Assembly (NCBI GenBank): GCA_914767715.1
Contig: OU612066.1
Coordinates: 2,301,001-2,365,000, forward strand
Length of the DNA stretch: 64,000 nucleotides
Direction: 5' to 3'
DNA from: Membranipora membranacea
Lineage: Eukaryota; Bryozoa; Gymnolaemata; Cheilostomatida; Membraniporidae
Below are positions 18,999 through 62,153 of this stretch, piece after piece (position 1 is the first letter of the stretch; each line of letters opens with the position of its first letter). The translations under genes were made by a program, and so were the position numbers. The notes under the pieces are model-generated. The model searched no databases and was not told where the DNA came from. It saw only the letters and a program-made list of their open reading frames with translations.

Positions 18999-19901
18999 GT
19001 GAATACAAAGTATAACAATAAAACTCGTAGTACAGAGAAGACGTTGAAGAAGGATGACTCGTGGGCTAGGATATACTCGGAGCAGATAGCGGATATGGTA
19101 AGTAGAAAGGTTGCGCGGAAGCTAACTCATGAGGAGATCGAATCTTGGAAAGGACCAGTCTTCTACATCTCACATCTGGCAGTACAGAATCCAAAGTCCA
19201 GTTCTACACCAGTAAGGATTGTCTTCAATTCAAGTCAGCTGTTTAAGGGTGTATCACTTAACTCTTTCTTGGCCAAAGGACCAGATTCCTACTTGAAAGA
19301 CTTACTAGGTGTTCTACTTAGATGGAGAGAAGGTTCTCAGGTGCTAGTGGGAGATATAAAGAAAATGTACATCTCAATCTTCATAGAACCAACTGAACAA
19401 CACTGTCATCGTTTTTTGTGGCGTGACATAGAAGACAGAGATCCGGACGTCTACATCATTCAACGGGTGAACATGGGTGATAGACCAGCGGCAGCAATTA
19501 GCTCTGAAGCGATTTATAAGACTGCCGATATGTGTCAAGATGATATGCTAGAGGTTTCCAAACTTCTAAAGCATTCCACCTATGTAGATGATATTGTACA
19601 CTCGGTAAATTCTGCAGAGGAAGCAAGAAACCTAGCCCGCCAGACTACAAATGTACTGAAAGATGCAGGATTTACTATCAAACACTGGCTCTTCATTGGA
19701 GAATCCTCCCCTAGGGTGGACCTGGATACTCCTCCACCTATAAGCCACTCTTCAAAACTTCAGATACTGGGCATAACTTGGTGCTCCATAACAGATAATA
19801 TCACTTTCTCTCCTAAGATTAACTTTTCTACAAAGAAGAAAGGAATCTACACTCAACCCAACCTGACTAAGGAACAGATACCTAGACTGAAGGCGAATTA
19901 A
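18999..19901 (+). pseudogene. BEL/Pao LTR-retrotransposon reverse transcriptase fragment
   Basis: A 300-codon open stretch has RT features of the BEL/Pao superfamily: a VYYISH-like segment (VFYISHLAV), PVRIVFNSS, a VGDIKKMY segment where the first catalytic Asp is expected, MGDRPAA and the catalytic YVDDI near residue 190. It starts within the RT upstream region and stops soon after the palm. Gag, protease, RNase H and integrase are missing and no LTRs are seen. It lies directly upstream of the DUF7869-like gene in opposite orientation. It is a remnant, not an active element. Confidence 0.85.
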
Positions 19902-32958: not shown

Positions 32959-34913
32959 ATGGAGGGAGGAAATTTGTCACAAGCAATTCTCTTAGCTTTG
33001 CTGGTCATCACTTTAGTTTTCAAGGTCCATGGAGGTGAATAAATTTTTTGTACAATTCATCATTATTTTCTTCTTTTTGAATGTAAATCCCGTTTCTCTC
33101 CAGCCTTGATATTTTGGCCATATCTTTTTTATGTGTGAATATTCTCTTTGTTTCAGGCAAAGATATATCCTCTACATTCTATCGTATCAGTATATCAGAA
33201 GGTGCTGAACTGATAGATCCAATAAATACCTCGGCAAAACGTCTGATAGAATGCAGTAGCGTGTGTTTATATTACCACATTTACAATGGTGAAAAGTGTT
33301 ACTCCTTTTATTATGAGATCACCAGCTTTCAATGCAACATCTCCGAACAGATTGGATTTAGACGAGGCAGCAGAGGGTCTAGTGAGCCAATCATATTTTC
33401 ATTGATCAATAGTGAATTGGTTTACTCTGATAACCTCGCTATAGGTAAGTTTTTCTGGTTTATGAAATATCAAATTTGCTCGCAACAAAACTAGTAAATA
33501 TGGTGTGTTATGTAAATTGACCTGGTTTGAGGGTTCACCAGCAGTGTGCCACATAAATACAGTGTCCTTGCCAAATTTGATTTCAAATTTGTGAAGGACT
33601 TAAAATTTGAAACCCGTACCCATTTCAAAGCCCTGACAGGATTCAATAATACTTGAATACATTGTAGAATGACGTACTCAACATGTTATCAAGCTGACTG
33701 GGATCATAATTCCTTTGTATCTCTTTCCATTGATCAGGGAAAATTGCCAGCGTATCCAGTGTTGGATACACCCTTGATGGATCACAAGCTATAGATGGGG
33801 ATATTAATACACACATGCAGACAGCTGATTCTGGTGATCCTTACCCATGGTTGAAAATAGATATGGCAGCTGAGCAGCTGGTTCTGTCCGTCTCAGTTCT
33901 AACCAGACCTGTTTGGAATACTTGTAAGTCTAGAACTCCATCAATATTCAAGATTCTTTTATTTAATAAAGAAAAGTCTATTTAGTAAACATAAAATATA
34001 CATTAAAAGATATAAATAGACATAAAATATTCATGATATCTTAAAAGGCTCAAACTGATAAGCCGGGCTTAGGCCTATTAAGGTATTCTCGTTGCTAAAA
34101 TTTCAGTTTGGAATATTTTATACTAATGTACCTGTTCCCTTTTATGCTATAATGAAAGAAGCATATTTAAATTATGTCTGAGTAAAAAAAGTTATGCTGT
34201 ACCAAAGATTTGAAAAACGTATCGAAATTGTACAGAGTCTATAAAATGTGTATTGAAATAATCAGTCATGCTCCATGTCATATTTGTAGTCAACAGTCCA
34301 AGCTTTTCGATCAGATTTTTGGTCTGATATTCGCTTAACATTCAGCAGCTTCACTGATCAGTTTCATTGGGTGATTTATTAAGAAAGGCTTGAAATGAAA
34401 ATCGTGAAACGCCTGGTATATTGACTGCAAGACGCAATGGAACCTTAATGCTTATACCCAATATAATCCTTATGATTTTTTGTACAGGAATAAACTCCTT
34501 GCACAGTAATGGCAGATTGGCTGGATATACAGAGTGCCATCAAAGCAGTTTATTTTATTGACTCCTCTTTCATTGGTGGAATGACACTGTCTAATGATAG
34601 ATACTACTTTCCTATAATTTCAGCTGAGGATATAGTGAACCAACGTTTCCGTAATGTTGCGTTCTACATCGGTGCACAAAGCCAAACATCCTCACTAGCA
34701 CAGGCTTCTAACCTGTGTTACTATCAGGTGGATGTTGTTGAAGCTGGTACTCTGACAGAATTTGAGTGTACTTCTTCTGGTTTGAAGCTTTATAACTACA
34801 GCAGCTCACGATGGGAATACTATCAGAGAGGGCGCTACCTTATGTTACAGCTCAATTATAGTTATCCCGTCCTGCAGATGAGCGAAGTCTACATAGTGGG
34901 TTACTCATTATAG
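32959..34913 (+). CDS. Secreted PAN-like + F-type-lectin-like (F5/8C fold) protein, four exons
   Basis: Exons 32,959-33,034, 33,157-33,444, 33,738-33,923 and 34,624-34,913 join in phase 1 throughout and give 279 residues. Residues 1-25 are a signal peptide (hydrophobic AILLALLVITLVF). Residues 27-121 are a cysteine-containing domain with the feel of a PAN/apple domain. From about 122 to the end the pattern is that of fucolectin/F5-8 type C domains: AIDGDINTHM, PYPWLKIDM, ERF-like QRFRNVAFYIG, FECTSS, GRYLMLQL and a closing EVYIVGY. The RGDCC sugar-binding motif of eel fucolectin is not conserved, so fucose binding is doubtful. The protein is probably secreted and may act in recognition or adhesion (inference). 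I start exon 4 at the acceptor TATAATTTCAG because it restores phase and matches the inverted paralogue at 44.8-47.0 kb. Confidence 0.85.
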
Positions 34914-44754: not shown

Positions 44755-46997
44755 TTAATATGTTTCGGCAGATGTGTATCCCGCTATGTAAACTTCACTC
44801 ATTTGTAGGATTGCAAAACTTCCAGTATAATTGAGCTGTATCATAAGATAACGCCCTCTCTGATAATATTCCCATTGTGAGCTGCTGTAGTTATAGAGTT
44901 TTCTGTCTGAAGATGTACACTCAAATTCTGTCAGAGAACCAGCTTCAACAACATCCACCTGATAGTAACACAGGTTAGAGGCCTGTGCAAGTGAGGATGC
45001 CTGGCTGTGTGCACCGACGTAGAACGCAACATCATGGAACCGCTCATTGACCTCAACTAAAAATACAGGAAAGTAGATTGCTATGGACTGGGATAGGGTA
45101 AGCATTTTCCGCGTTTTCCAAAAAAAACACTCCAAATTAAACTTCTAGTAGTGTCAATCATCTTTAGCCTTAGCCTTAAAGTATTTCAAATTGTTTCACT
45201 GCTGTCATTTCTGACAAGCCAAGCAGAACATACTGCCGGACTATGAAATGCTTTGGTCTGTGGGTATCTTTCAAAAGGTTATGCAATGTTACCATTTTAT
45301 GCAGAATTATTTTACTATTGTTATTATAGTGCTACACAAATGGATGGTGCATATAGAAATTCATGAAAGTTGTAGAATAGCTCAAGATTAGTTTCCTTAG
45401 CTATCTTTATCGCTACCGAAAGCTATTATCACAACAGACAATACTTTCATCAGACTGAAATAACGTTACGTTGTGACAAGTCATGTGACCTGCAGGGAGC
45501 CACCAAAACAAGCAAATAAACAGAATCGAGAGGAGCTTTTTATCTGGCTATATCTCAGGAAATTATGTGCATCCATCCTCAAAACTTTACAAGATGTAAT
45601 CTGAGACATTAATGAACATAATGAGAAACTAATAAGGTTATTGACCAATTAGCCTAGAAGTTATGAGTGAAAAACCATACAGAGAAGCATGATGGTTCTA
45701 CAGTAGTAACTTGGTTGGGCCATTAGCATAATTTATGAAAACAGATTATCAGCTACCAGAGTGTTACCCTTATTTATACCAGAATTTAATTTAATATTAT
45801 TTGGTGTTAATTTGTTCAGTAGGCCTAATGATACATTTCAATTTGCTTCTCTACTGTGACGACTTCAATGCACAATAAATAACAGCCTCATTCATGAAAA
45901 TTTGAACTTACGACTTCCATTCCAAAACGCTCTTGTTTGAACAGAAACAGACAAAACCAGTTGCTCAGCTTCCATGTCTAATTTGAACCATGGGTAAGGA
46001 TCGCCAGAATCAGCTGTATGCATGAATGTATTGATATCTCCGTCTATGGCTTTAGACCCGTTACGATTGTAGCCAACACTAGATACGTCAGTGACCTTCC
46101 CTGATCAATGTAAAAGAGTCACATCCATGAACGATGATAGCACTCAATTTGAGTGCCATGGTGACTGATTCATTCTAAACTTTGACTTATTATTGAGAGT
46201 GTACTGACACAGCTCTGATATAGGTGTGAGGTGTAGCGTGGGCCTCGACCTTCACATTCTAACGGTTCATATGGCGAGGCTGAGGTGCGTGTATGAGATG
46301 AGGGCAAATATGTAAAAAATTGCAATTTTTCAACTGAGTATCCAAATAACACCGAACTTGATTATTCATTTACAAACATTTATAATCGAAATAATATTGT
46401 TATAAATATTCTTTAATAATTGATATATTTCTGTGGCATCTTCAATTCAGAGAACAGCATATTTCTTTGCAATATTTGTTGTAACTAAATTGAATTTTTT
46501 CCATCAGAGAAACACATACCTAGAGCAAGGTCATCAGAGTAAACCAAATCATGATCAACCAGCGAAAAGATGATCGGCTCACTAGAAGACCCACTGCTGC
46601 CTCGTCTAAATCCAATCTGTTGGGATATGTTGCATTGTAAGCTGGTAGACTCATAATGAAACGAGTAACACTTTTCACCATTATAAATTGGGTAATATAA
46701 ACAAATACTCCCACATTCGATCAGTCTTCTTGCTGAGGTACGTATTGGATTAAACAGTTCAACCCCTTCTGATATACTGATCCGATAGAATCTAGCAGAT
46801 AGATCCTTGTCTGAAAACAAGAAATTAAGATTTACTCATAAATAAGATAATAGCCCAAACATCAAAGCTGGGGAAAAATGGTATTTACATGAATCATAGT
46901 ATTATACCAAATTTATCTCACCTCCATGGACCTCAGAAGCTACGGTGACGGCCAGCACAGCTATGAGAAGTACTTGTGATAAATTTCCTCCCTCCAT
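44755..46997 (-). CDS. Secreted PAN-like + F-type-lectin-like protein, inverted paralogue, four exons
   Basis: Exons 46,997-46,922, 46,810-46,520, 46,100-45,912 and 45,056-44,755 join in phase 1 and give 285 residues. Exon 1 has exactly the length of exon 1 in the plus-strand gene at 33 kb, and all introns are at the same positions. The signal peptide, the PAN-like cysteine domain (CGSICLYY, GEKCYSF) and the lectin-like domain (AIDGDINTFM, PYPWFKLDM, NERFHDVAFYVG, FECTSS, GRYLMIQL, EVYIAGY) are all kept with no stops. Homology to the other locus continues about 350 bp upstream of the ATG, so the promoter was duplicated too. The RGDCC motif is missing here as well. A secreted recognition protein is the likeliest role, by inference only. 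Confidence 0.85.
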
Positions 46998-47355: not shown

Positions 47356-47523
47356 GTATATTACAATCTCTCATTGTCATATATAACAAATTCTATTTTT
47401 TCATACAGCAAAAAAACAAAGCTTGGGGATGGAAGGAGACATTCACAGGATACACTGATCTTTTCATGCTCATCAACTACATAATCATTTAGACAACATA
47501 GTGTTTTTTCCCCCAACCAATCT

Positions 47524-47910
47524 TGTTACACCCACAAGTGTAATAATTTTCAAAACTTGTAATAACACCCACAAATGTAATAATCTCTTCCCTCAAATGT
47601 AATAACCAACCACAAGTGTAATTACTTCTTCCCTCAAGTGTAATAAAATGCTTCATCCACAAGTGTAATAATCTGTTCCCTAAAATGTAATAAAAAAAAA
47701 ATCACCCACAAGTGTAATAATCTCTTCCCTCAAATGTAATAATTTTATTCGGGTTAATTGTATTGGAGAATAGAGAGGTTAGATCATCTGACAGCGCTAT
47801 TACTGTGTTATATGCGCCTTTTGGTGTTTTTTTTGCACTCCAAATTGTCATAATAGGGCTTTAAATCATATGAAAATCAATCCGTTTGAGTTGTATAGGG
47901 GAGACAACGT
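47524..47910. repeat. Left terminal inverted repeat of the Ginger-like element
   Basis: Begins TGTTACACCC. The outer ~220 bp is an array alternating CACAAGTGTAATAA and CTCAAATGTAATAA separated by TCTCTTCC-type spacers. The inner part is unique (GACAGCGCTATTACTGTG; CACTCCAAATTGTCATAATA) and runs to GGGGAGACAAC. Confidence 0.95.
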
Positions 47911-48341
47911 AATTGTAAATGGCTAAAAATTTGAATCCTATGAAAATCAATCCATCATTCATCCATCCATGTAATCATTTTTCACCATACCTATTCTGCA
48001 GCTAGCGGGCCATTTTTCTTTCCTAACTTTCAATAAAACTCCTAAATTTGACTGCAGTGGAGCACACCTAGTTAGTAGCACCGCAATGGACTGGAGGAAA
48101 AGGTTATGAGTTAGAGGCCTAACTCATTCTAGTTATAAACCTATTGATTTGTATCATCAGCCGGTGTGAAAAAAACCAGATTTGTTTGGAATGTGTTGGA
48201 ATAGCATGGGCATAGGCTTAGTGCAAGGAAGACAAAGCTGATAAAAATTACACTACCTACTGTCAGTGGATGAAGCACAACTTGAGTTTTAGTGATCAGA
48301 TAATATGCCAACAATTTTTTATCAAAGGCTGCGCCGGAACC
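47911..48341. other. Subterminal non-coding DNA of the Ginger-like element
   Basis: Contains a short direct repeat CCTATGAAAATCAATCC and an ATCCATCCAT run at about 47,958. No gene. Confidence 0.5.
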
Positions 48342-50285
48342 CAGTCATGGATGGATGGATGGATGGATGGATTTTATTACTATCACTGACAGCATTATTA
48401 AAAGAAAAAAATGAGTCGCGAAATACAGTGTAATTGCTGGCACTTAGAATCAGCAAGAAAAAAGCGAAGACACTTGGAATAAAAAATCAAATCTCTGTCT
48501 AAAAAAGTATTTCGTTTAAAATAAGAGTGATATGACGCAGAAAACAGTCTCTCCCCAGTGAGCTTCTATGTTTTACTGTACGGTATCTGCCAGATGGACA
48601 TTTACTCAACAAATCATTGATGAAATGATCCTCATCGTGAATATAGCGTAAGGCCAGTGTTCGTGTCTGATTGTCCATCATGGTATAAATATCGGGATGT
48701 TCAATGCCTAACTTAATAGCGTCCTTGAAAATTTTACACAGGCGTTGCTTGTCAGCAGAATACAAGCTTTTAAAAATAATGGGTAAGCAATAGGAGATTC
48801 GTGATACAATAAAACTTTTAAAAAGCATATTTGATAATGATTTAGAGTTTAAAAATACAAAATTCCTGACTACATACATCCTTTGAGAGGCGGTTGAAAC
48901 TATACCATGCACATGATCATTAAAACGCAGCTTATCGTCAACTAATACACCAAGATATTTAACTTTATCACTAAAAGCAATAGCAGTATCATTTAAAACA
49001 AGTGTAGGGGTAGAAGGTTTAACATATTGGGTGGATAGCATCATTTCCTGGGTCTTAGTAGGGTTTAATAAAAGATTTAAATCAGCACATTGTTTAGCAA
49101 TTCTATGGATTTCATGAAAATAGGAGTTGAGATCTGATTGATTAGCTATGCAGCCTATGATGCAAGTGTCATCTGCGTACTTAATTATTGTAACATTACT
49201 CAGGTTTGAGGTAATCCGGTTTGTATATATGGAGAACAAAAGGGGAGACAGACAGCAGCCCTGGGGGTGCCAGTGTTCGTTATAATAGCATTTGAAGTTT
49301 TACCATCAACAACAGTTCTTTGCACTCTGTTAGATAAGAAGCTGTAGATCCACTCAGTGACATTGGAGTCAAGATGAGTAAGCTGCGAGATAAGATCAGG
49401 AACATGTATAGTGTTAAAGGCCGATGAAAAGTCTAAGAAGAGACATCTAGCATAGTGTGAAGCCTTCTGGTCAATAAAGCTGGTGACGGTCGAAGTTAGA
49501 CAGAGCAGGGCATCTTGTGTAGACCGATTAGCTTGATATGCGAACTGGTATCTATCCATAGGAGTATGAGCCATAATATAATGTTTTACAAGCCGCTCCA
49601 TCATCTTGCAGAGACAGCTAGTTAGCGCTATTGGTCGATATTGTTTAAGTTGAGCAGGGTCTTTGACTTTTGGTAGAGGTTTTATTATAGCCGATTTCCA
49701 TGAAGCAGGTGTAGTTTTAGAGTTGATAGAGGAGCTGAACAGTCTAGTGATGATAGACGCCAGCTGGTTGGAGCATAGCTTTAAAACTTTGGGAATAAGG
49801 CCATCTGGTCCGGGGCCTTTCCTAGGGTTAAGTCCACTGAGCTGTTTGAGGACTATGTCTTCTTTTATTTCTAGTGGTGGTGCTGTAGTGTTAGAATTGT
49901 TTATCACAGGCGGGACGGGTATAGGTTTCTCATATCTGGTGAAGAAGGTATTCAGGTCATCTGGGGCAAATAGGTTCTGCTTAGGAGTTGTGTTGGTGCT
50001 AGTAGGTAGCCCACTAATTTTCTTGATATCTGTCCATGCTTTTGCAGGTTGTTTGACTAGTTGTTGTTGAATTTTGGTAGAGTAGCTTTTCTTAGCGATA
50101 ATTATTGCCTTGGTTATATCACGCTTAAGTTTGTTATACAGTTTACGATTGCCAGTTTCATGAGCAGTTTGTTTTTGTTCCAACATCTCTGATTTATGCT
50201 TGTTCATCCACGGTTTTTGGTTGGTACACATCCTGAAACTTTTAGTGGTCGTAGTAAGGCAAAAAGTCTCCACAGTACTTTTTTA
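48342..50285 (-). mobile_element. 5'-truncated CR1/L2/jockey-like non-LTR retrotransposon
   Basis: Minus-strand coding runs from 50,273 to about 49,240 and continues in another frame to the stop at 48,499. Visible RT features in order: NQKPWMNKHK, a conserved segment between endonuclease and RT in this group; RKGPGPDGL; LKQYRPIAL; FLDFSSAFNTI; TGTP then QGC-LSPLLF; YADDTCIIG; and the C-terminal region LGVLVDDKLRFNDH. The endonuclease domain is missing (5' truncation). A single-base change in a run of C at about 49,264, just before QGC, shifts the frame, so no intact RT is made. The 3' end is a short UTR with an (ATCC)n tail at 48,342-48,372. A nearly identical 3' fragment is at 708-1,113. It is nested inside the Ginger-like element. 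Confidence 0.9.
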
Positions 50286-50862
50286 TATACTGCTCATTAC
50301 CAATAACATTAATTTTGCGAATGCTTGCAATAGTTTTTAATCAAGTAATAAAAAAAAAACCTATACATTTCCTAGCTATCTCTGCGCATGTCCTTGGTGT
50401 CAAGGGTAAGTGGTGACAAACCTGATGATTCAGAAATAGAATGAACATTATGTGCTGGCAGCCCACCAGACAGCCCTACCCAAGACTATAAATAGACTAT
50501 AAATTCATCTAATATTTTATATATATATGCATATGTACATTGTACCTTTATTGACATAAGACTGCTGCTTATAAAGTACAGGAATATAGCAGAGTAGGTG
50601 ATGGACAGGCCAGTACAGAAATTTAAGACATAATTTTTTATTATGGAACGGTAATAAGAGTATGAAAATAAATGCTACATGATGTATGAGACCTATGACC
50701 TGACTTCTATTTTAAAAGATGAACAGAAAGTCAGTACTACTGATAACTAATCTACAGTTTAATACACACAAGCACACAACATGATATAATGATTGAAGTA
50801 AGAAAGCTAAATGTATAGTATCGAATCAGGGAACAAACATACATCGGATTTAATTAGATTAA

Positions 50863-52095
50863 TCATTTCCAGTGTATGTCTATGACTCGATACCACCCGA
50901 ATCTTAGTTTCTCCAAAGTAATGTAACCGTTTATCCAGCCAGTGCCGTTGCCCTGCAAAATTTCTCGCAGTTCTATCGCCACTCCACTGCCTCTTCCACA
51001 ATGTAGCATGATCGTTCTAACACCGATCACTGGGTTTAGTTCCAACTTCAGCGCTCTATCATCCATTAGATTGAAATATACCTGTGGGCATGATTTATGG
51101 GATTCATACACACACACAGGAAATTGAGTTCCAAAGATGGTCTTTATATTGAGGAAATCATATATGCTGCCCGTGGCAGCATACCGGAATATGCGCTCAA
51201 TATCAGCACATTTCAAGTCGAAAAACTTGCAACAAGGCTTCCGGCGCATGTTGAGGGCTAAATCACGCCACAGCCGACACACACTCCGTATCCTTGTCAG
51301 ACATCTGAGATCGACGGAACATAGCTGAAGTAGGAGCATAATCACTAGTAGAGGCAGTTCATTGATATGAAGTGGGGATCTTTAAAATGTTAGACAGAAA
51401 AGATGAATCACACTTTCATATCATAATCAGATCGGTATAAATCTCCCTCCCAGTGAAACCCATTCTGATAACCCAAAATATGTCACTTCCTACTATATAT
51501 CTTCTTATTTCCCTGATGGTAATTTTAAAAGTAGCAAAATAACATCAAGTGGATTGGGTATAGATATTGTAAATGAATAGTGCCATTTACATACCGTTCC
51601 TCAGCTGACTCCTTTGATGATGGAGTTTCCCTATCACTGTCAGTGGTCTTTAGCAGACAGGTTGGTTCTCGCTTCACTTCTACAGTGCTGGTACTACAAT
51701 GGTAGAAATCAAAATACATGTTATCAAGAACGTAATACATCTTTGCCCTTGATCAAGAAACACGTATCGACAATATATAGGCAATGACGGTCAGAATAAA
51801 TAGTCTTTACTTTGCTCTTTGTCTTTGATAAGTATGTTTTCAGGGGCCCCGCAGCTTACCATATTTTCAAGCTCCTATACTGAGCTTGATGAATTTATTC
51901 ACAGTTATTCTGACTTGGCAAGGAACACCTACCAGATTTTGAACCTGGAAGCTGGAAGCGACAATAGGATTTATCCTTCATGTATTTAGGCCTTACCTGA
52001 TATTAAATGCTGAATTCTGTGCTTTAATGCGGCTGCTGTTAGACTCGATAATTGTATGATTGATGGGAATGTCTGTTGCTTCTGATGTACTGGCG
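50863..52095 (-). CDS. F-box protein exons of the Ginger-like element
   Basis: Three exons: 52,095-51,997 (99 nt), 51,693-51,595 (99 nt) and 51,379-50,863 with the stop. Acceptors (TGGTTGTAG, CCATTGTAG, TTTTAAAG) and donors (GTAAGG, GTATGT) agree in phase. The first two exons give a Ser/Thr-rich acidic linker. The third opens with an F-box: NELPLLVIMLLLQLCSVDLR continuing into the C-R-x-W segment. An unassigned ~120-residue domain follows, ending HIDIHWK-like. F-boxes bind Skp1 and recruit substrates to SCF ubiquitin ligases. The first exon needs an upstream exon ending in phase 2. The OTU ORF can supply it through a 47-nt intron (52,142-52,096; donor GTGATA), which would fuse F-box to OTU and integrase. 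A separate transcript is the alternative. Confidence 0.65.
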
Positions 52096-52138
52096 CTACA
52101 ACCATTGAAAGAAAAAGAAAATTTTATTATCGGTTCTA

Positions 52139-54846
52139 TCACTGCCCCGGTTTTCCCAGTCTTAATTTTGCAACATATTCATATAGGTGATTGAAGTTAT
52201 CTGTAAACCAGGAAGCTTTATTAAATGCTGTGCTTCCACTTGGTGTTAGTATTGTTGATCCATGTTGAATAGTAGAATCAATGAGTATCTGCACATGGAA
52301 GATTTCTTCAGCTACCTGGAGTGTTAGATGGTCGCCAAATTCTGCATTTTGGCTCATCCGTGTGATGTATTCGTATTCATCCTCCCCAATTGCTTCAGTC
52401 CACAACATGCTGTTTTGGATTCCGACATACCTGTTTCTCATGAGATATTCAATAACCTCACATCTGAGTGTGTCCGCCGAACGGTATATTCCTAACTGTT
52501 GAATAGCGTACGCTATGGCTGCAAATTGACAGTTCCCATCCGGTGCTGGGTTGAAAATGGTCGGCGATGCAAAGAGTTGAGAGCTGTTGCTTATCTGCAC
52601 GTCCAATCTGGTTTGCTGCATTCGTTTCTTTTGGAGACTAAGTGTACTGCCAGTCAGGTCCCTGACTGAAATCCATTTTGTTTTGGCATTGTTATTCACG
52701 TGATATTTTACTTTATACAAGTACAGGTTTTCATTTCTCTGGATTACATTTCCCATCACAACCTTTGCCTTGGATATTCTTTTGTTGCCTGTCCTTAGCC
52801 GTATCAGGACTCTGTCATTCATTTCATATGGCGGTGTTTTTAATGACTTGATTGAGCGTCTTATAACTCTCTCATTTTCCTTTTCACTGGTTATTCTTGC
52901 CTCACTTCGAATTCTCTCAGTTGTGTTCTCGGATGTTGTGAGGTACTTCTCCCGTCCGTAATACACATTTAGTGGACTCCACCAGGCTAGTTCTCCTCGT
53001 GGCATATCGTTCAACTGGAGTTCATATGTAGGAAGCTCATTTACCCAGTTTGTACCGTTGGGATTCGAGATGAGGTCGTACTGCATTTTGTACTTCAACG
53101 TACGGTGGGACTTCTCTACTTTCCCCTGCGACTCTGGGTGATATGGGCTGCTGAATATTTGTCAAATGTCTCTTGCCTTTAGCAGTCTGGACACATCCTG
53201 CTTAAATTCTGTACCTTGGTCATTCTGGACTATCTTTGGGTTACCAAACGTGTCAAATATCGCCTTCAGCTCCTTTGCCACATTTTTTGAAGATTTTCTT
53301 GTCAATATTCTTTACAATTATGATACGCCGGATTGTTGCGAAAGTCAACTAAGTCGATTTGTACTCGCCACATGACGGTCCTACAGCATATCGGTGTAAT
53401 GGGAGCCTTGTTGCTGAACCTAGCAGACAGTCTTTGCCGGGTGGTTGAGTGTTGTAACGCAGATGCAATAGTTGCCTCAGAGAACCCTACGTATGTGCCT
53501 TTCATTTTTAACTGCAAACGTCGTGGTCCAAGACCCTTCTCAAAATCAAAGTGTTTAGCAATCACCGGTGCCTTCTCGGATTGTCGTATCACTCATAATC
53601 CATCTGCAAAAAATCAGTAAAATATGGCATTACAGTCTGAGACATATTGACAATGTAGTATGCAGATGCTTTGTGTTGTGTGATTAAACACCTAGGGACT
53701 CCAATCAAAGGCATGAAGATATGTTCTTGTTCAAATTCACACCAAATGTCATACACCTGGAGTAGTCTTCTATGTATTTTGATATCAGTTGACTCCAACA
53801 AAAAGGGCAGACAACTCCAATATTCCACACAAACTACAAATTAGCTACTGCTATTTATATGAATGCAGTATGAATGAGTAAAGTCATAGTGTATGCACCA
53901 AGGTTATTTCAATTAAGTTTCATTGACATCTTCTTGTTTCATGAATGAGGATGTGGAGACAAGAAAATTCATCACAATTGACTGTACTTCAGCGTAATAG
54001 CCAATTAACACTAGGGGTGGAATGAGACAGTTTTTGAAAGTCAAAACAAGATGAGAAGGGACAGCACGAAGTAAGGACAAAGTAGGAACAATTTAATCAT
54101 TTTTTTCCCGCTTCGAAAATGAGAATGGGGAACTTATTTTTGTGTCAACGAGACTGCATCACCCCGCCTCGAAATCCATCTCGAAACGGAGGGGCGTCTC
54201 ATTCCTAATGAAGACAATTAATAGTCATGCAAAATAAACATTACCCGGAGAGACAGGTAATTCGAAAATGCTGTGCTACAAATTGGGCTGTGTGTAATGA
54301 AATATTCAATGAGTACATTGTGGATTAGGCTCTGCTTACCAAGGAGAAGAATCTGTTCTGAGTCTTTGATTTCCACGCTCCAACGTCCCATGTAGCGCCA
54401 GTGATGAACATATGCAGAACGCTCCAATTTACTGCGGTCCTTGACTGCGGATTTAAAGTTTCCACTCTCTATTTTCATAATCACATCATATATGCCATCA
54501 TTCATCACAGTAGGCTTTCTCTTTCCTCTAGCATACACACTGTCGCAGCATATGAATATCGAAAAGACAAGTAGTCAAATCACTCTGAAAAAGAATAAAC
54601 AGATTTCATTGATGACAATTCAAGTTATAGGTTTCATCAATGACTTAGATCATTGGTTTCATGTATAATACTATTATTTGTAGCCGAACCGCTTAACATC
54701 CGAAACCTGGTAACTATTGTCAGTTCCTTGCCAGGATTGATGATGGAATGCCAATGACAGGCAGTAACTTTAAAACGCTTGTAGAAACAATGAGATGAAA
54801 ATGAGATAGTGATTGTTTTTGCTCACCTGAGGAGTGAAGTTGACAT
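52139..54846 (-). pseudogene. Retroviral-type integrase with OTU cysteine-protease domain (transposase), broken
   Basis: Exon 1 is 54,846-54,827 (MSTSLL). Exon 2 is 54,539-54,340 (N-terminal MNDGIYDVIMKIESGNFKSA region, as in KRBA2-like integrase proteins). Exon 3 starts near 53,591; phases match. Exon 3 holds a DNA-binding-like N-terminus (LSARFSNKAPITP), the integrase core with the first Asp in RVQIDLVDF, the second in VQNDQGTEF and Glu in PESQGKVEKSH about 35 residues later, then a GPY/F-like region, and an OTU domain with the catalytic DGNCQF and a late His (FNHLYEY). OTU domains are deubiquitinase-type cysteine proteases. Defects: a deletion with frameshift near 53,300 removing the segment after the first Asp, and an in-frame TGA near 53,163. 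The OTU part itself (to 52,139) is open. Confidence 0.8.
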
Positions 54847-55437
54847 CTTGGTCGCTGCAATGAACAGCAATAACTGATGAAAAATTCTACTTTCTTTTAC
54901 ACTGTGATATATTGGGGTAATAATGTCCAGCTGAGTCTGTTTATTTTTGACTTTTGCTTTTGTTCAAGTTATGTAACATTATGATTGATATTTTGTGCCT
55001 AAAAAGAGAGGAAAAATTAACACGTATTTATTAATTGGTTGAATGTACAATAGAATTAGAACAATTAAAGTCAACTGTGACTATCCTATGCTACAACGTT
55101 TTCACACATAATCTTGTATATCTCTTTCATTACAACTATTTGAAACTCGCTCCGTAAAAATAGTTCACATGATTGTCCAAGTTTATGTAAATCCTAGCCA
55201 CCCTAAATGACGGCTCCAAAAAAATGGGCAGCATCAGTAATATCATAGTTTGCCCATTGTGAATCTTGATGTGCTCTGGCTGGCTTAATCAATACCATGA
55301 CTCTTCCTACTAGACATATAAAGTTTGGTAATATTGTAGAGTACAATGAGATTGATTGTTAATACCCGTATTAGATTTGTTAGAGATGATCTCTCTAAGT
55401 GGAAGATTCTTATCAGTTTCAAAGTTTATAATAAAGT
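54847..55437. other. 5' flank of the integrase gene inside the element
   Basis: Non-coding DNA between the first exon and the right TIR. It presumably holds the promoter of the transposase gene, but no defined site is visible. Confidence 0.35.
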
Positions 55438-55831
55438 TGTCTCCCCTACACAACTTAATGCCTTTGCATGGATTTTCATAGGACTTACGTTTAAAACCCT
55501 ATTATGACAATTTGGAGTGCAAAAAAAACACCATAGGCGCATATAACACAGTAATAGCGCTGTCAGATGATCTGATCTCTCTGTTCTCCAATACAATTGC
55601 CGGCAAGTAAAATTATTACGTTTGAGGGAAGAGATTATAACACTTGTAGGTGATTTATTTTTTATTACATTTGAGGGAAAAAGTTATTACAATTGTGGGT
55701 GAAGCATTTTATTACACTTGAGGGAAGAAGTTATTACACTTGTGGTTGGTTATTACATCTGAGGGAAGAGATTATTACATTTGTGGGTGTTATTACAAGT
55801 TTTGAAAATTATTACACTTGTGGGTGTAACA
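55438..55831. repeat. Right terminal inverted repeat of the Ginger-like element
   Basis: Reverse complement of the left TIR with only scattered differences. It ends GGGTGTAACA at 55,831 and is followed directly by the target duplication AATCT at 55,832-55,836. Confidence 0.95.
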
Positions 55832-57149
55832 AATCTACTTAAATTTTGAAGGGAAACATTTATTCTATTATTAGTGATCCCACTAAATGTTACACTCTAA
55901 TTAAAATGCTAACTTTGACACACTGAGAGGGATGAGTAAATCCTTAATTAATAACATGGTTACTTGGGAAATGCGCACTATTACAACCTCTGTGAAACCA
56001 CTTCATGTCCAGGAGATAAGCCTACTTGGTATGATACCTGAATTTTATCCAATCATGACCTTGACCTAATATGAATCTGTTATCCAAGAAATGAAATGGG
56101 GTAAAGCAATACTGACAGGCAACATAATCTTCTCAACATCACCTTCTAAGACCAAATGTTTTCCTTTTGTATTCTATTAGTCTACTTTAGGCAAAAGAAT
56201 ATGTAAAATTCCAGTTTTCCAACAGAATTATCATGATTGATGGTACCAAAAGCTATAAAACAATGTAAATACCGCACTAGATGATCCTATCAAAATCAAC
56301 CTATTAATTATGAGAAGATTGAAGTGATTAATCAATTGTGAGAGTGATTAATTGGAGTCATTTGTTCATGACAAAATAAACAACTGTCAATTTGCCTACC
56401 GTAAAAACCACAGCACCACAGATGCACTGTTGACAATGGTAAATGATTGGTGCTCAGCTCTGGATGATCAAAAAACCAACCATATCTCTGTCACTATGGT
56501 TGATATGACAAAAGCTTTCGACAGAATGCACCAAGACATATTAGTAGACGAGCTGCAACAGCTAGATATACCTGATTGACTGATACAACTCATCAACAGT
56601 TTTATGAGTGGTTGATCTTCTAGTGTAAAACCGGGATATCATGTTTCTTCAAACCGAGGAGTTAAAGAACCAAGGAGTCTTTAACTCCTTGTTCAAACAT
56701 GCCAGCCACAATAGTAGCACCTCAGGGAACCAAGCTGGCACCCTGGCTATGGCTGATATATGTGAACAATCTCGAACCTAAATCCAAAACCGTAAAATTT
56801 GCAGATGACATCACGATGTATAATATCATCAACAAATGTGACTTAGATGATGGTAGTCAACAACTGCAACAAGACCTCGACCCCGTTGTCTGACTGGGCG
56901 AGTACCAGCAATATGAAGCTAAACACCAGTAAAACACATCTAATAACGAGAAATGACGGATCATAAATGCCACAAAACTTCAGGGGTTTGGATGATATAC
57001 ACTGAGTTTATGATGGATGGCCAATTTGCGATGTCATTATAAGTGCAAATTAAAATGGCTGGCCTTTCCATGCCACCTATGAGGTAGACAGCCGGAGTAT
57101 CGTTGTCCTAACATGTGACAGAACTCCCCCCCCCACAATCATTTACAGT

Positions 57150-60394: not shown

Positions 60395-62153
60395 TTATTG
60401 GCGTTGTCTTCTCATGCGTGGTAGAGTACTGTTGGTGATTTGTGTCATGATAACAAGAGCTAATACATCAATACAGGCGATACACCCGTACCAGGCTGGC
60501 CCTGTTATATTCTTCACAGCCCAGTTAGATCTCATCGCCAGGTTAAACACTATAGTAACCAGCGTATAATTGAAGAGACCGTAGACTGAGTGATAGATTT
60601 TAGCCTGAGCTAGAGACACAAATCGTTTGATGATCGATGGATAGATAAGTACGACCCCAGCTAGTGCCTGAGCGCAGCATGATATGACAGTTATAAGCCC
60701 GAGTAAGCCATGCCAGCTGGTATAATGTGGCTTTCCTCGCTCCTCCTTACTCAGATAGATAGCTAACAGACCACCCAGAGAGCAGACGATCATGAGCAGC
60801 TGTAGAATCCAGTGAGATCTGACCTGTAGCTTCCTGTCGCCTCGTACTACAGAACTCTGCTGTGAGAACATCAGTATTGCTTCAGTCAAAAACAGCGAAA
60901 ACTGTAATACAAAACATACAGCTATCAGTAATAATGGTAGTGACAATGTAGAGCGAAGGAACACTGTAACGGGGAGCCGACTACTCTGTGATACCTCTCT
61001 ACACGTTCAAATATCAGAATGTGAAACCATGAGGGTTTGGAATTCCTGCATGATATGCATCATCTTCTCCGTTCGGTAATCTATATTCAGTTCCGTCTAT
61101 TAATTCTTTGATTAGTTGAACCCGCTTTACCAATGATAAATGGGTTGAATAAATCCCTTAATTGGCCACAGTTGCTGGCATAGCTGATATCTAATAACTT
61201 TTGATCTGGATAGTCAGTAATATGATACCAGAAGTTGCCCAGGACAAAAATGTGATCTTGATTGATGCATGAAGCGTGACAAAGATATAATTAGACACCC
61301 AATGGCAGGTTCGGCAGACATGAACATTTTGTTAGAACAAGTACTTTAGGATGTCATTTTCCAACCTAAGATATCCGACATAAATGATTACTCAGTAACC
61401 CGCTAATTATTCAGTTAGGTACAGTAATGCATCCCATAGGAATAAAAAGTCAAACACACTGTTCATTATCCAAAGTGGATTTTCCTGCTGTGCTGTTTCC
61501 TGTGCGAATCGACAAACCAATGACTTTCTATTAGCTATCATTACAGCAACATCAAGAGAGACATACCCCTATGTTGCACATTTTCTGACAGAAACAAGCC
61601 ACAATGGATTTGTCACACAAATGATGATATAAAATGTAGCCATCAAAGCTACAAACTATCCTTATTTTAAAACACGACTCAAAATTCAAATATATTTGAC
61701 CGAGTTCTCACAATAGGCATTACAGTGCCTACTCTCAAGTCCCAATATTGATAAAAAATAAGGTAGTATCCTATACAAAAATTAGTTATAATAACTTACC
61801 GCCAATGTCATGAGGAATGGGTGCCATGAGAAGTAATCTACAATGCGAAACAATTGATTAAGCAAAAGGTCAATCACATAACAGCGTATCACACTAAACA
61901 ATAAAGTGCCTGACTGACCCTGAAATTTGCAGTTTAAAAAGCTTATGAAGACAAAATGTACATCGGTGTGATAATCAGAGAGAGATGACAGTACAGACTT
62001 ACTAGCTCCAGGTACGCAGGAGTATACCATGAAAGTAGTAAATAAGAACACAGCCAGGTGAGCCACCATGGTGATAAGGAATGTTCTCTGATTAGAATAC
62101 GAGGTTAAATCCCTCTTCTTCTTATCCTCCTGGTTCTCAATTTCATCCAGCAT
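60395..62153 (-). CDS. CYB561D2: Cytochrome b561 domain-containing protein 2-like transmembrane reductase, three exons
   Basis: Exons 62,153-62,003, 61,837-61,800 and 60,901-60,395 join with matching phases and give 231 residues, close to human CYB561D2 (about 222). The fold is six membrane segments binding two b-type hemes. All four heme-ligand histidines are present: His56 (FSWHPF), His93 (RSHWIL), His127 (SWHGLLG) and His167 (IYHSVYG). TEAILMFS also matches the family. Such proteins pass electrons from cytosolic ascorbate across a membrane to monodehydroascorbate or ferric iron. Donors are GTAAGT (both) and acceptors TTGTAG and TATTACAG. Introns are 165 and 898 nt. The N-terminus is charged and short, without a signal peptide. 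No defect is seen, and it is one of the clearest host genes in the window. Confidence 0.93.

Follow-up and report, generated by a model that had tools for sequence, protein, structure and literature searches.

The 64,000-nucleotide stretch of DNA from the bryozoan Membranipora membranacea analyzed here (assembly GCA_914767715.1, contig OU612066.1, positions 2,301,001 to 2,365,000), referred to below as the window, contains at 47524-55831 a transposon whose inverted ends read TGTTACACC...GGTGTAACA. We interpret it as a decayed copy of a multi-exon, Ginger-like DNA transposon in which a single protein combined an integrase, an OTU domain, an F-box-like region and a conserved C-terminal domain, with a probability of about three in four that covers anatomy and class only; the mode of transposition is presumably cut-and-paste. 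The boundaries of the element were located as follows.

47519-47523: target-site duplication AATCT, left (from the sequence)
47524-47919: left terminal inverted repeat (TIR), 396 bp aligned (from the alignment and further genomic copies)
55425-55831: right TIR, 407 bp aligned (from the alignment)
55832-55836: target-site duplication AATCT, right (from the sequence)

Each TIR contains four internal direct repeats of approximately 45 bp (47561-47742 on the left, 55613-55789 on the right), and the termini of this family are TGTTA, of the TGTNR type. A first-pass annotation of the window had described near-identical inverted ends of about 390 bp and a perfect AATCT duplication. The inverted arrangement and the duplication were both confirmed while the near-identity was not, the two TIRs being 89.5% identical over 409 alignment columns and reaching 95% only across the outer 225 bp.

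When the left TIR was used as a DNA query against the assembly from which the window comes (339 Mb, 18 contigs), at least 31 matches were obtained. The best 30 candidates of this search, 78 of 526 from a search with the integrase/OTU region and 40 from a search with the C-terminal tail were scored, and the copy numbers given here are lower bounds. In the 15 fetched stretches and the window, 13 copies retain both ends, a lower bound for the assembly, and a perfect 5-bp duplication was observed in 12 of these 13, the exception (L016) having one mismatch; not counted were L021 (a deleted remnant), L022 (one end detected) and L023 (neither end detected). The copies are 95.1-98.9% identical and split into two or more subfamilies, with that of the window grouping with L009 and L010. 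The proposal that the sequence between the AATCT duplications is one mobile unit is thus borne out by the other copies, and neither of the two outcomes named beforehand as speaking against it, integrase-free copies throughout or lack of a 5-bp duplication, was seen. The TIR search recommended at that stage also yielded an uninterrupted gene, that of copy L011. When the 12 perfect sites were combined with two from a second family described below (n = 14), the consensus was RNSNY, with a purine at position 1 in 10 sites, G or C in the middle in 12 and a pyrimidine at position 5 in all 14. The remnant L021 (C9:22526150-22527700) is short, retains parts of both TIRs and little internal sequence, and resembles a non-autonomous derivative.

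The window copy is dead, because another element is nested inside it, stop codons break up its integrase and the catalytic His of the OTU domain has been lost with a 309-bp deletion. The nested element is the following.

48351-50248, minus strand: fragment of a non-long-terminal-repeat (non-LTR) retrotransposon of the long interspersed nuclear element (LINE) type, not part of the transposon (RVT_1 match; missing from 12 other aligned copies)

This fragment of approximately 1.9 kb has its reverse transcriptase (RT) in two frames, carries an ATGG repeat at its 3' end and was missing from every one of the 12 further copies in the alignment. The statement that the unit holds no RT was therefore incorrect as written, since open reading frames (ORFs) with RVT_1 matches (E 6.9e-15 and 1.5e-6) lie within its coordinates, and correct for the transposon itself. 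A Gypsy LTR retrotransposon was ruled out, as the ends are inverted and the RT belongs to the nested LINE. Exon 2 of the window copy has suffered two deletions, of 55 bp and 309 bp, the latter taking out the region of the OTU catalytic His, and 204 bases of the exon are missing. No rve match was obtained with Pfam for the window copy's own integrase ORF pieces. The OTU domain was detected in ORF 52139-53098 (Pfam E 1.3e-8), as had been proposed, and the reading frame of exon 5 is still open. The minus-strand fusion of integrase and OTU proposed from the window alone stands across the copies.

In L011 the gene has an unbroken frame of 848 codons in five exons, with the sequence taken unaltered, and its four introns are all GT-AG with phases 1, 2, 2 and 2. 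The exons were mapped from L011 onto the window as follows.

54340-54580, minus strand: exon 1, hydrophobic signal-peptide-like leader and N-terminal conserved region (also from homologs)
52217-53603, minus strand: exon 2, integrase (DD34E in L011) and OTU (also from Pfam)
51997-52095, minus strand: exon 3, linker
51595-51693, minus strand: exon 4, Ser/Thr-rich linker
50863-51379, minus strand: exon 5, F-box-like region and conserved C-terminal domain (GSG...W...GWY) (Pfam F-box/F-box-like matches below cut-off)

The gene, running from 54580 down to 50863, is larger than the first-pass annotation had it. The L011 protein begins with MLLLVFSIFICCDSVYA and contains in order a hydrophobic leader, an N-terminal conserved region, the integrase (rve E 2.9e-14; triad D164, D227 and E262, with 34 residues separating the last two), the OTU domain (E 5e-10, above the Pfam cut-off, with catalytic C457 and H578), two linkers, the F-box-like region starting near residue 684 and the C-terminal domain. 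The exon junctions agree with unspliced homologs, for example exon 1-exon 2 with the Lytechinus protein P0013. An open frame of 105 amino acids (L011 sense 1951-2265) was considered as an additional exon and dropped, since direct splicing of exon 1 to exon 2 reproduces the phase of the homologs.

The integrase-OTU query returned 110 homologous proteins, with sources including sea urchins, corals, a sea star, a hemichordate, fish, molluscs and rotifers. The OTU Cys is kept in 23 and the His in 24 of 24 aligned homologs, proteins which are 28-39% identical to the first sequence of the alignment, and this conservation argues that the protease works. In one relative, P0079, Ulp1 (Peptidase_C48) replaces OTU, an alternation also found in Ginger1. 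In a tree of integrase cores built with FastTree, with one Gypsy-type hit as its root and with Gypsy-type and other hits but no Ginger1 sequences as outgroups, the lineage was separate from the Gypsy-type hits and the Ulp1-bearing relative fell in a basal group, a position without strong support. Nine Rotaria integrase proteins (P0072, P0076, P0078, P0081, P0082, P0086, P0087, P0089 and P0093) formed a well-supported clade of their own in this tree. No relative in viral contigs was confirmed among 4 pattern matches.

A second transposon family is present in the same genome (L036, L037, L038 and L041) and is 39-40% identical to the family of the window element. Here the integrase, OTU, F-box-like stretch and C-terminal domain lie in a single continuous frame (739, 736 and 739 amino acids in the three copies read) without an intron between OTU and F-box, and the fusion therefore no longer depends on the splice model. 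L041 is interrupted, whereas L036-L038 share 98.5-99.6% identity across their long aligned stretches; L038 has an altered OTU Cys motif. The TIRs of this family are 274 bp with TGTAG...CTACA ends, and the 5-bp duplications were ATCCC and GCCCT in the two copies for which both flanks were fetched. The possibility that the F-box-like tail belongs to an independent gene next to the transposase, which its location on an exon of its own in the window element's family might suggest, was rejected on the continuous frame of the second family; single homologous proteins also carry both parts, the intron phases are compatible and L011 has no internal ATG of the F-box segment, making a separate gene very improbable indeed.

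The tail was detected in 29 of the 110 homologs in a search (E up to 1) with a hidden Markov model (HMM) built from 18 homolog tails together with those of the window and L011. Eleven of the 29 were outside the training set, some of them near copies of training members, and the weakest match (P0046) covered 27 positions only; 23 of the 29 plus the window entered alignment A2 and 22 entered alignment A4. F-box matches below the cut-off were observed in 10 of 24 tails, and in some (P0012, and L036 by eye) there were two F-box-like stretches in tandem, a layout the window tail may share, its first stretch failing to line up with those of the homologs in the alignment. Two results weigh against an F-box assignment: the L011 profile score of 19.1 bits misses the curated cut-off of 24.3, and only one of seven full-length homologs gave even a sub-cut-off match. 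The precomputed Pfam annotations of the 29 tail-bearing homologs list no F-box, and domain look-ups accordingly miss this region. A viral structure library returned F-box/ankyrin proteins among the neighbors of the tail, whereas a PDB search with the model of the window's own tail had no F-box among the matches listed. The domain following the F-box gave no confident structural match in the PDB or viral libraries, and no substrate-binding repeat of a known type was recognized downstream of the F-box-like region. As a protein-database query the tail retrieved only itself and one 87% identical protein, word seeding being weak for this region. Against the genome it gave at least 28 matches, all in the window element's family or adjoining integrase/OTU matches of sister families, and no host F-box gene was found among the best 40 candidates. 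The fusion of a C-terminal F-box-like region and conserved domain to integrase-OTU looks like a new feature.

The leader was assessed in those homologs whose N-terminus looks complete (29 of 110), defined by a first catalytic region at residue 135-200; L011 is not one of them. A hydrophobic stretch (mean Kyte-Doolittle value of at least 2.0 over 11 residues) was found within the first 30 residues in 19 of these 29, including proteins from Lytechinus, Ptychodera, Acropora and Oculina, a count inflated by three sets of near-identical rows. For all 19, shuffling of the protein's own first 100 residues reached this value in fewer than 5% of trials. The letters differ between homologs but the position and hydropathy of the stretch are maintained, a pattern shared with signal peptides, and (-3,-1)-like sites occur in many leaders. 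A signal-peptide-like leader in many homologs would be a new and surprising observation and, if real, difficult to reconcile with current knowledge of transposases. Taken at face value these N-termini would make the leader a true signal peptide or reverse signal anchor that brings the transposase into the secretory pathway, DNA being reached by retro-translocation or nuclear-membrane anchoring, or the protein acting outside the cell, with OTU serving an extraction of the type seen in endoplasmic-reticulum (ER)-associated degradation, a process in which the OTU activity of YOD1/OTU1 takes part. We regard such routing as doubtful: the stretch was missing from the first 30 residues in 10 of the 29 (for example P0044, P0059 and P0075; in P0037 and P0083 it begins further in), no leader was found by scan in the second family and a splice-acceptor-like site lies upstream of the L011 ATG. 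The wider proposal of an ancient lineage of animal transposases, separate from both Ginger1 and Ginger2, in which one chain unites an integrase, a deubiquitinase and an adaptor of the SKP1-CUL1-F-box (SCF) ligase and is routed through the ER by a conserved signal peptide is unlikely; if true, a DNA transposition enzyme would pass through, anchor in or exit via the secretory pathway. A limited literature search found no earlier description of either the F-box-like fusion or the leader, and the claim of absence is a weak one.

With ends, 5-bp duplications, copies, domain order and conservation of catalytic residues established, the following sequence of events can be proposed. DDE integrases attach the two ends with a stagger, the size of which determines how long the duplication is. 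In the present element the integrase would bind the repeated motifs in the long TIRs, cut the ends and join them at RNSNY sites staggered by 5 bp. The F-box-like region, putatively of the SKP1-binding type, would bring the host SCF ligase to the complex, and OTU would strip ubiquitin and protect the transposase-DNA complex from being dismantled too early. Recruitment of SCF would then allow the final removal of the very stable strand-transfer complex or of a bound host factor, followed by gap repair. ClpX acting on MuA and the Agrobacterium F-box protein VirF offer comparisons. That the ubiquitin modules time the lifetime of the transposase-DNA complex is the function we judge most likely, and we offer it as a tentative proposal. 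More broadly, SCF recruitment and OTU activity would govern either the lifetime of that complex or the choice of host proteins that remain bound to it.

The same modules may instead be directed at the host, the F-box-like tail marking silencing or repair proteins for degradation while OTU shields the proteins of the element. F-box adaptors usually recruit substrates, which would suit such a role, as would the F-box/ankyrin neighbors in the viral library, but the tail offers neither a recognizable substrate-binding repeat nor a C-terminal domain of confident structure, and we consider an attack on the host possible rather than probable. The earlier suggestion that the element may tamper with host ubiquitin signalling gains weight from the conserved OTU residues and from the F-box-like region, which the first-pass annotation had not picked up. 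Bao et al. (2010, PMC2836005) noted the presence of ubiquitin and SUMO proteases in transposases and had no more than a guess as to the reason. A conserved fusion of a ubiquitin remover to an apparent ligase adaptor makes that puzzle testable and raises the question of whether the element uses the host SCF system to time when its own DNA complex is put together and taken apart.

Outside the transposon the window contains the following further features.

18999-19901: reverse-transcriptase fragment (weak RVT_1), presumably BEL/Pao-like
60398-60964, minus strand: ORF with a cytochrome b561 domain (Pfam E 6.6e-25)
34509-34913 and 44755-45135, opposite strands: two similar ORFs (YYQVDVVEAG...FECTSS) without a Pfam match at E 0.01

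Several known systems resemble the element in part. KRAB-A domain-containing protein 2-like animal proteins (P0070, P0084) are relatives at 42-45% identity, with the integrase domain alone annotated in their records. OTU-bearing Helentrons and the Burro giant Gypsy elements, with ubiquitination/apoptosis domains, are likewise mobile elements with ubiquitin-related domains; they use other transposition enzymes, and the term 'F-box' does not occur in the text describing them (PMC6431247, available in part). Ginger2/Tdd elements (TDD-4, TDD-5), as far as the available parts of their description extend, share the integrase-based DNA transposon, TGTNR ends and lack of GPY/F, and TDD-4/5 have 5-bp duplications. 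In contrast to the present element they possess an H2C2 zinc finger and target 4-5 bp AT-rich RTATAY sites, as opposed to sites with a central G/C in 12 of 14 here; OTU is not mentioned for Ginger2 in those parts.

The closest system is Ginger1 (Ginger1-1_HM and others), for which OTU in the transposase was already published in 2010 (Bao et al., Table 1, PMC2836005, available in part). The OTU-transposase fusion itself is therefore known and not a discovery. Shared with Ginger1, as described in the available part of that paper, are a Gypsy-like integrase, a C-terminal OTU (Ginger1 has OTU or Ulp1), TGTNR ends (TGTTA in the window family, TGTAG in the second), inverted repeats, introns and low copy number. 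Ginger1 as defined there has 4-bp CCGG/CCGT duplications, H2C2, YPYY, GPY/F and TIRs of about 40-270 bp. Here the duplications are 5-bp RNSNY with no CCGG-type site in either family, and the TIRs of 396/407 bp exceed that range, those of the second family (274 bp) only slightly. Among 61 sequences with at least 100 amino acids upstream of the DDE core none matched H-x3-5-H-x20-40-C-x2-C and none contained YPYY as a contiguous string, no Pfam zinc finger was found in the 848-residue L011 model, and GP[YF] occurred in 0 of 69 sequences, a test of the string and not of the fold. The F-box-like tail is a feature of the lineage described here, and neither 'F-box' nor 'signal peptide' appears as a term in PMC2836005.

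An ordinary Ginger1 family carrying OTU and tail as passive baggage would account for the published OTU, the TGTNR termini and the flat substitution pattern within the family, where codon statistics gave no signal. The OTU Cys and His are nevertheless kept among the divergent homologs, the tail persists in 29 of the 110, and several defining features of Ginger1 fail, making passive baggage distinctly unlikely. Ginger-like is apt as a label, but the element is not Ginger1 as defined because of its 5-bp RNSNY duplications and the lack of H2C2 and GPY/F strings. We therefore place it, with fair confidence, in a Ginger-like lineage outside Ginger1 and Ginger2 as defined, set apart by their descriptions; judged by its sequences, a Ginger-like lineage with 5-bp RNSNY duplications and without H2C2 or GPY/F strings is new here.

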